Shown: piece by piece, positions 40 through 49,128 of the stretch
Layout of the letters: each line of letters starts with the position of its first letter
Position numbering within the stretch: position 1 is the first letter of the stretch
NCBI GenBank assembly: GCA_017415805.1
Contig: JAFQEC010000020.1
Coordinates: 1 to 64,000, forward strand
DNA: 64,000 bases
Direction: 5' to 3'
Source: Clostridia bacterium
GTDB taxonomy: Bacteria > Bacillota > Clostridia > Oscillospirales > CAG-272
Position numbers and translations under genes: made by a program
The notes under the pieces: model-generated
Databases searched by the model: none
What the model was told of the DNA's origin: nothing
The model's input: the letters and a program-made list of their open reading frames with translations, nothing else

Positions 40-240
40 ATGAATGAATTGATGCTATTTGCTCCGCAAATGAGGCATCATGAATTGGCTTCGCCATGAT
101 TTGCTCGCGGAATTGCCACGCAATTCGTCGCTCACATGAATGGAATTGCAACCAATGTGCCGCAAGGCACAATTCATACCGCAGGCAATTCACGAAAGCG
201 CAGCTTTCAATTCACGCAACCGCGAGGTTGCAATTCATTG
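40..240. repeat. Symmetric array of short hairpins (array 1)
   Basis: A run of short hairpins joined by a fixed linker. In the left half the linker reads ATGAAT (about 44, 80, a variant at 96, and 136); in the right half it reads AATTCA (171, 187, 209, 232), so the linker flips strand at the centre. Between linkers are small stems whose arms differ from unit to unit but still pair: TTTGC/GCAAA, TGGC/GCCA, GAATTGC/GCAATTC, TGCC/GGCA, GAAAGC/GCTTTC, GCAACC/GGTTGC. Loops are tcc or ttc on the left and gca-like on the right. The same plan occurs at 25889-26059. Bases 1-39 before it are T-rich with no visible gene; 240-266 form one more hairpin (GCGTGTT/AACACGC). No protein-coding signal is seen. 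Confidence 0.75.
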
Positions 241-288
241 CGTGTTCTCCGTTAAGGATAACACGCATTCGTCTCTGTCCTTTTTCTT

Positions 289-11127: not shown

Positions 11128-11452
11128 TAACCTGCGTCGAGCCGCACACGAGGAGCAACGGCGCAAGAGCGCACAGATCATGCGCGCCTCCTTCCCGCGC
11201 GGGTGGGGTGTGTGTTCTCACAAGGCTTCTCCTTGAGGAGAAGCTGTCGCAAAGCGACTGATGAGGTGTAGGATGCGAAGCATCCGTAAAAAGGGAAACG
11301 CGCCTGCGGCGGCTACACCTCATCCGTCAGGCTATGCCTGCCACCTTCCCCTCAAAGGGGAAGGCAAGGGGTCGCCGCACGCGAGGAGCAACGGCGCGAG
11401 AGCTCCCTCTCCGTCGCCTACGGCGCCACCTCTCCCATGGGGAGAGGCTATT
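11128..11452. repeat. Cluster of interspersed palindromic repeats
   Basis: The 10916-11595 interval has no gene. From 11221 to 11452 it holds three related units, each a hairpin pair followed by a box resembling GATGAGGTG or its complement CACCTCATC: about 11221-11290 (GGCTTCTCC/GGAGAAGC), 11310-11368 (CTTCCCC/GGGGAAG), and a diverged unit 11402-11449 (CCTCTCC/GGAGAGG). The phrase CGAGGAGCAACGGCGC occurs at about 11151 and 11383. Related units lie at 18064-18228. Such repeats resemble mobile or structural intergenic repeats seen in many Clostridia. 11027-11127 shows nothing else. Confidence 0.75.
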
Positions 11453-11495
11453 TGAAAAACACGCCTGAAATAAAATTCGGCACGAATTTCTACCG

Positions 11496-11537
11496 AAAAA
11501 GCCGCTTCACCATCACTTTTGATGGCAAAGCGGCTTT
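11496..11537 (-). terminator. Terminator of the large ABC protein gene
   Basis: On the minus strand a long stem with arms GCCGCTT/AAGCGGC and GCCATC/GATGG, interrupted by a two-base internal loop, followed by a run of Ts. It sits 58 bases after the stop at 11596. Confidence 0.85.
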
Positions 11538-11595
11538 GTTTTATTGGTTTTTTCGTGTGTTTTTGTTCTGCGCGAACGAATTGGCCCCTTTGGGG

Positions 11596-17503: not shown

Positions 17504-18037
17504 ATGTACGACCACCGTCCCCAACGCCAGAACGCCACGGCAAAGCTCGCTGTGCTCGCGCTTCTTGCAGCCGCCGCCATTGCGCTGTTTGGCTCCACGC
17601 TAACCCCGAAATATCCCGCGATCCTGCAGGCGATCGGCATCGCGCTGCTCATCCCGATCATTCAGCTCTCAACGCGCTATCTTTTCACCTCTTATTTATA
17701 CCGTTTGCGGCCGTATGACGACGGGAGCACCGATCTGGAGATCTATTCCTACCGCGGCGGCGCGCGCATGCAGCTGGTCTGCCGCGTGGGACTCGAGGAG
17801 ATCACGGCTCTCACGCCCCTTACCGCGGCCAACAAAAAGCCCCCGCACGGCCTTCGCCGCTACAATTATTGCATGGATATCGGTCCGCGCGACGCACAGG
17901 TGCTCTCGGTCACCAACGGCGACGGAGACTGTGAGATCCTGCTCGTGCCCGACAAGACTCTTTGCGACGCCCTCGCCGCGGCAGCCAACGCCCCCAAGAC
18001 GGATACACCAACCGAAGATCCGACAAACGAAGAATAA
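17504..18037 (+). CDS. Membrane protein of unknown function
   Basis: 177 residues. Two membrane helices (about 14-32 and 39-60) are followed by a short cytoplasmic domain of the PH-like kind often found after paired helices in small Clostridia proteins, then a Thr/Glu-rich tail. No specific function can be given. The ATG at 17504 has AAAAGGAGA upstream. It follows the 16726 gene in the same operon and ends at a terminator. Confidence 0.75.
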   Translation: MYDHRPQRQNATAKLAVLALLAAAAIALFGSTLTPKYPAILQAIGIALLIPIIQLSTRYLFTSYLYRLRPYDDGSTDLEIYSYRGGARMQLVCRVGLEEITALTPLTAANKKPPHGLRRYNYCMDIGPRDAQVLSVTNGDGDCEILLVPDKTLCDALAAAANAPKTDTPTEDPTNEE

Positions 18038-18063
18038 GCGCCGCAAGCGGCGCTTTCTCTTTT
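18037..18063 (+). terminator. Terminator after the two-gene membrane operon
   Basis: AGCGCCGC/GCGGCGCT with a two-base loop and a TTCTCTTTT tail; the stem begins in the stop codon of the upstream gene. Confidence 0.8.
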
Positions 18064-18228
18064 ACGGATGCGCCGCATCCTACACCTCATCACCCGCTTT
18101 GCGGGAGCTTCTCCTCAAGGAGAAGCCTTGTGACGGCACGCCCCGCCTTTCATCTTGCCCTCAAGGAAAGCTCCTTCGGCCTTCCCCTTGAGGGGAAGGT
18201 GTCGCGGTACGCGACGGATGAGGTGTTT
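18064..18228. repeat. Interspersed palindromic repeats, second cluster
   Basis: Two units of the family seen at 11221-11452. 18064-18132 has the box CACCTCATC and arms GCTTCTCC/GGAGAAGC; 18166-18228 has CTTCCCC/GGGGAAGG and GGATGAGGTG. The first is inverted relative to the unit at 11221. No gene lies between 18038 and 18554; the rest is a promoter and riboswitch. Confidence 0.75.
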
Positions 18229-18309
18229 TTACGCGTTGGCGTATTACTGCAATACACCCCGCAGCGCACACATTTTTTCACAAATCCTTCACTTTTTTTA
18301 CCAAAAGGG

Positions 18310-18338: not shown

Positions 18339-18393
18339 AAATTCGAATTTCCGCAGATGCGGTCGGAATCGCACGAAACCGACCGTTGAGGTG

Positions 18394-18468
18394 GCTCCGG
18401 AGAAGCTCATTTGAGTGCCGAAGGTGCAAGGCGCGATGCGCCGAATCTCTCAGGCAAAAGGACGGAGC
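18394..18468 (+). promoter_or_regulatory. Glycine riboswitch (single aptamer)
   Basis: Shows the glycine-aptamer core: GCCGAAGGTGCAAG, a GGCGC/GCGCC hairpin, then AATCTCTCAGGCAAAAGGAC, enclosed by a GCTCCG/CGGAGC closing helix (about 18394-18399 and 18463-18468). It lies in the leader of an AGCS amino-acid/cation symporter gene, a common glycine-riboswitch target. Only one aptamer is seen; the leader segment 18361-18385 can form its own GGTCGG/CCGACC hairpin. Confidence 0.92.
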
Positions 18469-18500
18469 AGACAATTCCCTTTTTGTATATTGTCTGTTTT
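18468..18500 (+). terminator. Terminator-like expression platform of the glycine riboswitch
   Basis: CAGACAAT (18468-18475) pairs with ATTGTCTG (18489-18496), followed by TTTT. The 5' arm starts at the last base of the aptamer closing helix, so ligand binding could influence folding. Single-aptamer switches on symporter genes are often OFF switches; the direction here is inferred. Confidence 0.6.
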
Positions 18501-25259: not shown

Positions 25260-25285
25260 TGCTTCGCTTTTTGCCGCCGCTGCAA

Positions 25286-25358
25286 GCAAGCCCCCGTACG
25301 AGACGCCGCCGTTGGCGGCTATCGGCTGTTTGTCGCTTCGCTCCAAACGGCAAGATGC
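25286..25358. repeat. 73-bp direct repeat, copy A
   Basis: Nearly identical to 25469-25541, with four visible differences. Contains the palindrome GCCGCCGTTGGCGGC and ends in GCAAGATGC; its complement GCATCTTGC follows at about 25391, so the unit and its follow-on can fold together. The 25192-25652 interval otherwise holds only a promoter and hairpins, no gene. Confidence 0.85.
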
Positions 25359-25468
25359 ACGAAATGAGCGCGAAAGGCAAAGAGAGCGAGGCATCTTGCG
25401 GGGTTCGGATTTGAATTTCACGGGAATTTCGCGCCTTGCGCGAATATTTTTGCTCGCGGCTCATGTGA

Positions 25469-25541
25469 GCAAGCTCCCGTACGGGACGCCGCCGTTGGCG
25501 GCTATCGACTGTTTGTCGCTTCGCTCCAAACGGCAAGATGC
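25469..25541. repeat. 73-bp direct repeat, copy B
   Basis: Second copy of the 25286-25358 unit, again followed by the complement GCATCTTGC (about 25572). A further hairpin, GGCTCGTTTC/GAAACGAGCC, lies at 25585-25607 before the tRNA-Glu terminator. Confidence 0.85.
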
Positions 25542-25610
25542 GCCACACAACTCCAGATGCCATAGAATAGCAGCATCTTGCAGGGCTCGTTTCTGCGAAA
25601 CGAGCCGCCA

Positions 25611-25652
25611 CAAACAGAAAGCCACCCCCGATTGGGGGTGGCTTTCTGTTTG
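25611..25652 (-). terminator. Terminator of tRNA-Glu
   Basis: Perfect 19-base stem (25611-25629 with 25634-25652) containing CCACCCCC/GGGGGTGG, abutting the 3' end of the tRNA on the minus strand. Confidence 0.85.
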
Positions 25653-25727
25653 TGGTGACCCGTACGGGAATCGAACCCATGCCTTCGCCGTGAGAGGGCG
25701 ACGTCTTAGCCGCTTGACTAACGGGCC
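25653..25727 (-). tRNA. tRNA-Glu (anticodon CTC)
   Basis: Cloverleaf on the minus strand. Acceptor GGCCCGT pairs with ACGGGTC, discriminator A, encoded CCA. Anticodon stem TCGCC/GGCGA holds the loop CTCTCAC, giving anticodon CTC, which reads GAG. The T arm contains GGTTCGATTCC. It has a consensus promoter upstream and a terminator directly after. Confidence 0.95.
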
Positions 25728-25888: not shown

Positions 25889-26059
25889 ATGATGCATCGC
25901 CTACGGCGATATGATGTTTTTCGCCTCGCTCAAAATGATGTTGCTCCCGTTGGTCGCAATGATGCGATGTTTGCCCCAAAATGTGGCGAAGCCACACATC
26001 ATTAGGCGTAGCCGTCATCATTGGCGAAGCCAACATCATTTGCCGAAGGCAAACATCAT
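25889..26059. repeat. Symmetric array of short hairpins (array 2)
   Basis: Four ATGATG linkers (25889, 25911, 25935, 25959) followed by four CATCAT linkers (25997, 26016, 26034, 26054): the same 4+4 inverted plan as at 40-240 but with another linker word. Between them are short stems with different but matching arms: TCGCC/GGCGA, GTGGC/GCCAC, GGC/GCC, TTGGC/GCCAA, TTTGCC/GGCAAA, with loops tac on the left and gta or gaa on the right. It lies between the tRNA-Arg terminator and the tRNA-Glu promoter; no gene is seen in 25772-26061. Confidence 0.8.
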
Positions 26060-26061
26060 TC

Positions 26062-26101
26062 AAAAAACGCACTTTTGTCGGTAGACAAAAGTGCGTTTTT
26101 T
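26062..26101 (-). terminator. Terminator of tRNA-Arg
   Basis: Perfect 18-base stem (26062-26079 with 26084-26101) beginning and ending in A/T runs. Confidence 0.9.
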
Positions 26102-26103
26102 GT

Positions 26104-26180
26104 TGGCGCGGCACGGGGGACTCGAACCCTCGACCTACTGGTTCGTAGCCAGGCACTCTATCCAACTGAGCTAGTGCCGC
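26104..26180 (-). tRNA. tRNA-Arg (anticodon ACG)
   Basis: Minus-strand cloverleaf. Acceptor GCGGCAC/GTGCCGC, discriminator G, encoded CCA. Anticodon arm CTGG-CTACGAA-CCAG gives ACG, whose A34 is normally edited to inosine to read CGN codons. D arm AGCTCAGTTGGATAGAG and T arm GGTTCGAGTCC are standard. Confidence 0.95.
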
Positions 26181-39198: not shown

Positions 39199-39243
39199 AA
39201 AAAACAGCAGGGCGCACTTATGCCTTGCAGAATAAGTGCGCCC
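39199..39243 (-). terminator. Riboswitch-controlled terminator before purE
   Basis: Minus strand GGGCGCACTTAT (39232-39243) pairs perfectly with ATAAGTGCGCCC (39210-39221), with T6 at 39199-39204. Its 5' arm begins with GGGC, the 3' end of the ZTP aptamer core, so ligand-bound aptamer and terminator exclude each other. Expected action: ZTP bound means read-through. Confidence 0.88.
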
Positions 39244-39331
39244 AGACGGTCGGCAGGGAGCATCGCTCCCCTTCCAAGGCTCTGTTCCACTGTGTTTGAC
39301 ACATGATCCGTCAGTTGCAAAGCCCGTATTC
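39240..39331 (-). promoter_or_regulatory. ZTP (pfl) riboswitch
   Basis: Minus-strand leader with the pfl hallmarks: AACTGACGG near the 5' side, a GGGAGC/GCTCCC hairpin, and the conserved CCGACCGTCTGGGC, whose CCGTC pairs with the early GACGG. It lies in the 5' leader of purE, the expected gene type. ZTP/ZMP rises when 10-formyl-THF is short; the operon includes fhs, purN and purH. Confidence 0.88.
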
Positions 39332-49019: not shown

Positions 49020-49044
49020 CCCCGAGAACGTCTCGGGGGCTTTT
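49020..49044 (+). terminator. Terminator after noc
   Basis: GCCCCCGAGA/TCTCGGGGGC with a three-base loop and TTTT; the T tract touches the first parS site. Confidence 0.85.
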
Positions 49045-49059
49045 GTTTCACGTGAAACA
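49044..49059. promoter_or_regulatory. parS site 1
   Basis: Exact palindrome TGTTTCACGTGAAACA, the conserved bacterial parS, between the Noc-like gene and parA. ParB loads here as a CTP-dependent clamp. Confidence 0.97.
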
Positions 49060-49076
49060 GTGCGGGCGCTTTTGTT

Positions 49077-49092
49077 TGTTTCACGTGAAACA
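49077..49092. promoter_or_regulatory. parS site 2
   Basis: Second exact TGTTTCACGTGAAACA, 33 bases after the first, about three helical turns, so on the same DNA face. Confidence 0.97.
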
Positions 49093-49112
49093 GCGCGCTC
49101 GTTCCCAAAACG

Positions 49113-49128
49113 CGTTTCACGTGAAACA
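49113..49128. promoter_or_regulatory. parS site 3
   Basis: CGTTTCACGTGAAACA, one base off at the first position, 36 bases after the second. It ends 27 bases before the parA -35. Confidence 0.93.

Follow-up and report, generated by a model that had tools for sequence, protein, structure and literature searches.

Two arrays of short hairpins, laid out on one plan and built on different words, lie in the stretch of DNA analysed here (64,000 nucleotides, hereafter the window), and they raise the question of what kind of element changes its sequence while keeping its structure. The array that we followed sits between two tRNA genes, tRNA-Glu (25653-25727, minus strand) on one side and tRNA-Arg on the other. 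An initial annotation had described it as four ATGATG boxes followed by four CATCAT boxes with short paired stems between them, and this is what the DNA holds: ATGATG starts at 25889, 25911, 25935 and 25959, and CATCAT at 25997, 26016, 26034 and 26054. The stems are present as well (among them ATCGCC/GGCGAT, TGTGGC/GCCACA, TTGGC/GCCAA and TTTGCC/GGCAAA), with two imperfect units in the left half (25917-25934 and 25941-25958). Read on the minus strand, which is that of the element, the order is tRNA-Arg, terminator, array and remnant -35 box, with the following parts:

26104-26180, minus strand: tRNA-Arg(ACG), the host gene with the array behind it
26061-26102, no strand assigned: terminator hairpin of tRNA-Arg, a perfect 19 bp, T-run on the minus strand, marking the array's 5' border
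25889-26059, minus strand (element strand): solo 4+4 hairpin array with the word AATGATG/CATCATT, from its letters and its homologues
26048-26057, no strand assigned: word with the 5' arm of H1; its long-range partner, over 10 exact nt, is the centre; kept in all word families
26039-26053, minus strand: hairpin H1, TTTGCC TTC GGCAAA on the element strand
26021-26033, minus strand: hairpin H2
26004-26014, minus strand: hairpin H3, imperfect
25982-25996, minus strand: hairpin H4
25966-25975, no strand assigned: array centre, GGCAAACATC on the element strand; the second partner of H1
25896-25910, minus strand: hairpin at the end of the second half, read on the element strand as ATCGCC GTA GGCGAT, with a GNA loop
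25883-25888, minus strand: remnant -35 box TTGACA, touching the last word

The terminator carries an apical motif of the TTTTGTC-TACC-GACAAAA type that also adjoins many other array copies. No fitting -10 was found behind the TTGACA box, so the promoter at this array looks decayed.

The second array, which the initial annotation had matched to the first in plan but not in linker, indeed has the same layout and another word; its H1-centre partner is GAATTGCAACC/GGTTGCAATTC:

about 41-240, minus strand: array 1, word TGAATT/AATTCA
239-267, minus strand: border hairpin TGCGTGTTATCCTTAACGGAGAACACGCA, adjoining array 1 and occupying the terminator's place

Other repeats are found in the same window. 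Just past tRNA-Glu (25260-25640) lies a different palindromic repeat in two copies (GCCGCCGTTGGCGGCTATCG.CTGTTTGTCGCTTCGCTCCAAACGGCAAGATG), and clusters of perfect hairpins with the common motifs GCTTCTCC..GGAGAAGC and CCTTCCCC..GGGGAAGG, at 11221-11545 and 18036-18260, are probably another interspersed family. The window also contains glycine and ZMP/ZTP riboswitches, at 18387-18475 and 39233-39328. At 49044-49127, the known parS sequence, TGTTTCACGTGAAAC(A), is present three times, suggesting an origin-proximal region.

Could such arrays be chance hairpins? In 1.02 Mb of fetched loci, a word-blind scan recovered 147 arrays, where three order-1 Markov copies made from these loci yielded none, and we therefore reject chance; because these loci were picked for one array family, the count gives no genome-wide rate or density. 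An exact 20-base core pattern matches at least 118 stretches in genomes of gut Clostridia, and the window array belongs to a superfamily in these bacteria. The core is also present in three viral contigs. A phage origin was considered and rejected, given that there are only three such contigs and that one array found as a unit with its partner gene has no close phage match.

The superfamily strongly supports the idea, put forward from the window alone, of a family that varies in sequence yet keeps its structure. The spacer words number at least ten (ATGATG, TGAAAT, TGATAT, TCGATAT, GCGATAT, TGAAG, CTAAAT, TTATATT, TGAATT and TTATGA). Words are uniform within arrays and different among them: all eight in one array share one sequence, the second half carrying the reverse complement of the first half's word. 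Word length is 6-8 nt and spacing 18-24 nt, with hairpins in between. Stem sequences are not conserved among arrays, while the word is fixed within each. In most arrays, and in all families tested, H1 has a second, longer exact partner at the centre, of 9-15 nt as against 4-9 for the other units. This partner persists even when H1 differs, as with TGTTCC/GGAACA in loci L029, L174 and L211.

The loops are equally constant. The central flip from TNC to GNA loops, already noticed in the window array, is consistent across the superfamily: loops are GNA or GNNA, closed by a C-G pair, and change strand between the two halves in every family. Among 62 non-redundant ATGATG arrays, 93/108 and 48/71 triloops and 28/44 and 19/20 tetraloops fit on the expected strand, and only two loops fit on the wrong one; GN(N)A loops stand at about 80% on the expected strand and occur almost never on the other. 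The loops d(cGNAg) and d(cGNNAg) are very stable in DNA, and GNRA is the type favoured by RNA. Tetraloops of the GNYA kind are as frequent in the arrays as GNRA (24 versus 23), which, on these letters, points to DNA hairpins without proving them.

What, then, do the arrays travel with? The gene most commonly found downstream of them lies outside the window for the copy studied here and, like the terminator hairpin and the second partner of H1, did not figure in the initial annotation. It encodes a 117-residue, four-helix protein of the family PF05635/TIGR02436 ('23S rRNA IVP'). The match to TIGR02436 reaches 105.9 bits over a cut-off of 24, and PF05635 also exceeds its cut-off. The AF2 model (pLDDT 94.9) resembles the PDB structures 2rld (TM 0.84-0.95) and 2gsc (TM 0.80-0.87), and phmmer relates the protein to 2rld at 1.9e-29. 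It carries no recognised catalytic motif. When IVP genes were fetched by family, regardless of arrays, an upstream array with a score of at least 6 was found for 50 of the 109 array-type IVPs, for 0/29 of two other types and for 0/414 Markov copies, the array-type subset being those IVPs that lack two sequence motifs, a criterion picked after the first results had been seen. About half of the array-type IVPs (59/109) have no array at this score, and a shared-7-mer test found no clear downstream array for the Clostridial ones.

The word of an array tracks the subfamily of its IVP. A tree of 66 array-linked IVPs accounts for the ten words with 12 changes, against a minimum of 9 and a shuffled mean of 42.1 (0/200 shuffles). 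The word is shared in 235/248 IVP pairs at least 70% identical and in 59/1767 pairs below 60%. Part of this covariation is explained by linked inheritance, because array and gene are cis neighbours that travel together; linkage alone would cluster the words, but it leaves the joint change of all eight unexplained. A test in trans pointed the same way: among 39 relatives, five have an ATGATG-type IVP and all five of these have solo ATGATG arrays (Fisher p = 8e-4), in what is a small sample of incomplete drafts in which array and IVP matches come from related searches. No matching IVP was found in six genomes with solo arrays, most of these drafts being incomplete. In the window's own genome, the sole IVP adjoins its complete ATGATG copy. 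The TGAATT word of array 1 is that of the IVPs in loci L217, L218, L314 and L340, and no IVP for it was found in the own genome, again with most drafts incomplete.

Comparison of a single site reveals presence and absence. Within one genus, the tRNA-Val/ksgA junction is free of arrays in three species and occupied by a solo ATGATG array in another; the window's own genome carries both array and IVP there, and still others hold a different word family, the IVP being present or absent. Likewise, arrays at the tRNA-Arg site carry different words in different species. Sister species have, behind tRNA-Arg, partial tRNA-like fragments with long palindromic repeats (loci L184, L197 and L199), which are another kind of insert at that site.

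Array and IVP gene have also been transferred horizontally as a unit. As a yardstick of vertical descent we used KsgA, which replaced FTHFS because the latter has paralogues. A genome from a different family, with KsgA 42% identical, holds an array that matches the window array at 96% identity. Across families, identity is 88-97% among IVPs of the CTAAAT word (one pair is at 78% over a longer alignment) and 80-89% among their arrays, where KsgA is 44-57% identical. One subfamily of about 290-330 bp sits inside the loops of intrinsic terminators. For these copies (n=9), the complementarity of the flanks lies beyond 2001 permutations and is clear in six or seven of nine. Compared with a MITE, which has terminal inverted repeats and a target duplication, they have the imperfect ends ACCTGC-GATAAAGCAG / ACCTACCGTAAAGCAG, and about 2 nt (AA) are duplicated in one filled/empty pair; the ends of window-type arrays carry the word pair AATGATG/CATCATT. 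In genome G018 the tRNA-Arg terminator is duplicated, one copy filled with an array and the other empty; at its locus L190, the tRNA-Arg tail and terminator form a tandem duplicate around the array insertion. Elsewhere (L373, G034:C53), a single KREDAFYYKNLLMFGFSDGYDEWLNYYL-type gene lies between two direct ATGATG arrays, like a cargo cassette, and a gene of this type recurs in G013 (L197) behind an array of another word.

Of the options first offered for the window array, a mobile non-coding element fits best, given presence and absence at one site, terminator-loop insertion and horizontal spread. 'Non-coding' is true only of solo copies, because complete copies carry the IVP gene. To explain these results we propose that the array is probably a solo, non-autonomous copy of a two-part, IVP-dependent selfish DNA element, for which we infer binding and transposition. 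A complete element would consist of a border hairpin or terminator, an array (word four times, centre, reverse-complement word four times, the words being separated by short hairpins), an outward promoter and the IVP gene (PF05635). The IVP, whose homologues crystallise as five-chain rings, would bind the repeated word on array DNA. The array itself would act as DNA, probably as extruded or single-stranded hairpins, given its d(cGNAg)/d(cGNNAg)-type loops. Binding may let copies move or persist in the gaps behind terminators and in hairpin loops; host enzymes would do the cutting, and an IVP with the matching word could mobilise solo arrays in trans. On the best reading, the window array is a solo and probably decayed representative of this IVP-linked element.

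The genomic setting of the arrays suggests a different, though compatible, role. A tRNA gene, of one of many kinds, lies immediately upstream in 55/109 arrays and usually ends at a terminator. The terminator precedes the array, and an outward promoter often adjoins the other end: with at most two mismatches and within 80 nt past the array end, 54/117 arrays have one, against 13/585 Markov copies. In these promoter-linked arrays, the last word abuts or overlaps the -35 box, as if the array were an operator through which the IVP regulates its own promoter, solo arrays before other promoters being its regulon. As a full account this is unlikely, since the genes downstream of solo arrays are unrelated (ksgA, a kinase, transporters), their distribution is patchy even at one identical site, and the subfamily in terminator loops has no promoter. 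Nevertheless, the operator and selfish readings may both hold.

Could the array instead work as RNA, in an untranslated 3' or 5' element or as a small RNA? Both strands of the window array do fold better than shuffles (z = -3.4 on the plus strand and -4.3 on the minus), and RNAalifold on 40 arrays reveals two-sided changes in paired linkers and stems. Its consensus is mixed because array units differ in length, and words pair across the centre (L1:L8 and so on); this cross-centre pairing is a possible cruciform, which leaves the equality of the four words on each side unexplained. We nevertheless find an RNA, which was among the options first listed, quite improbable. Arrays typically lie between a terminator and an outward promoter, their tetraloops are GNNA rather than GNRA, and half of any array transcript would have UNC loops because the stable-loop strand flips at the centre. 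An Rfam search of the window over gathering score returned only tRNA, glycine and ZMP-ZTP matches and left the array unmatched.

Hardly better placed is a passive origin, in which hairpin-templated repair and slippage would keep words and stems alike without any protein partner. Quasi-palindromes are corrected by template switching, and some array units have long loop insertions (L015, L084 and L088), as such a process might leave. It does not explain the adjoining IVP gene, the tracking of IVP subfamily by word, the conserved loop letters or the horizontal spread. Least plausible, to the point of being disfavoured outright, is a REP/BIME-like element that depends for its movement on a RAYT/IS200-type Y1 (HUH) transposase: hairpins with tags, placed in both direct and inverted order, do resemble REPINs (PMC3116915), but the array stems are not conserved in sequence and Y1_Tnp (PF01797) was not found in the array-bearing genomes G000, G002, G018 (18 matches), G034 and G038.

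The IVP-dependent selfish element that we favour has several partial relatives. REP/BIME and REPINs with RAYT (PMC3116915, PMC3733652) are likewise short tagged palindromes in dispersed copies with a cognate gene; unlike in these systems, the partner of the arrays is no HUH transposase, and stems vary freely while the word is fixed per array. The STAXI motif (PMC2864571) also consists of tandem structured repeats with a proposed action as single-stranded DNA, but it forms pseudoknots near SSB and anti-restriction genes, and an IVP is not mentioned. Avd of diversity-generating retroelements (PDB 4dwl) shares fold and size with the IVP model (TM 0.76-0.83, less close than 2rld or 2gsc); it differs in acting with a reverse transcriptase and a template RNA. 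Another is the 23S rRNA IVS, for example of Coxiella (PMC4990558), a similarly patchy, selfish-looking hairpin insert with a PF05635 protein, in which tandem GACAGAT heptamers precede the S23p ORF. That insert lies inside 23S rRNA and is excised by RNase III, whereas the arrays follow terminators or lie within them, tRNA genes supplying most of these, and have 4+4 hairpins and a promoter of their own. The window copy is located between tRNA genes, and others behind tRNA genes or in terminators, rather than in a 23S rRNA helix; complete copies carry the IVP/S23 ORF, which the window copy lacks.

IVP genes accompany short-word arrays in other lineages as well. Within 200 nt upstream, a period-7 array accompanies 10/10 IVP genes carried on plasmids of Bacteroidota, cyanobacteria and Treponema and 8/9 belonging to one other Clostridial IVP type; among other reading frames the figure is 1/262. 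Downstream of those ten genes comes the reverse-complement word (7-32 shared inverted 7-mers versus a cross-pair mean of 3.5). Period-7 tandem words are a feature of these other IVP types; the window arrays, spaced at 18-24 nt, do not have them. At loci L407-L416, inverted arrays of 7-nt words bound IVP genes in other phyla, the word varying per element. In Monoglobus (L406), an IVP gene separates hsdS from hsdR in a type I restriction system, and on a Nostoc plasmid (L416) one lies between cas2 and cas1.

IVP/S23 proteins are widespread and have no assigned function (PMC4990558), and intergenic heptamer arrays are known without explanation (PMC4692102). Xanthomonas GGGAATC and Nostoc GGGGA(C/T)T (PMC4692102) and Beggiatoaceae TAACTGA (PMC4679880) are such heptamers, the first two often in inverted pairs and described with no function assigned (PMC4692102). 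They share with the arrays intergenic direct words of 7 nt, with convergent inverted pairs frequent in Xanthomonas, and differ in having period 7 and no spacer hairpins. A word search of the two texts (PMC4692102, PMC4679880) found no link to an IVP gene, and a wider one (tandem hairpins, interspersed palindromes, IVP with mobile elements) did not find the array-IVP association, of which a description unseen by us is possible. We tentatively envision, as a possibility short of a likelihood, that IVP/S23 proteins are generally word-reading, DNA-binding partners of selfish elements that have inverted arrays of a short word, specific to each element, at their boundaries. The hairpin arrays, the heptamers flanking IVP genes in cyanobacteria, Bacteroidota and Treponema, the heptamer microsatellites known from Xanthomonas, Nostoc and Beggiatoaceae, and the 23S IVS might then all belong to a single system with hairpin loops and terminators as its targets.

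A repeat family and a mystery protein thus both gain a role that can be tested, and the IVP subfamilies, each with its own repeated word, offer a natural series of protein-site pairs for doing so. Proof of binding would account for a class of dispersed repeats in gut Clostridia, hint at the nature of the rRNA IVS and provide a set of small, orthogonal readers of DNA structure.
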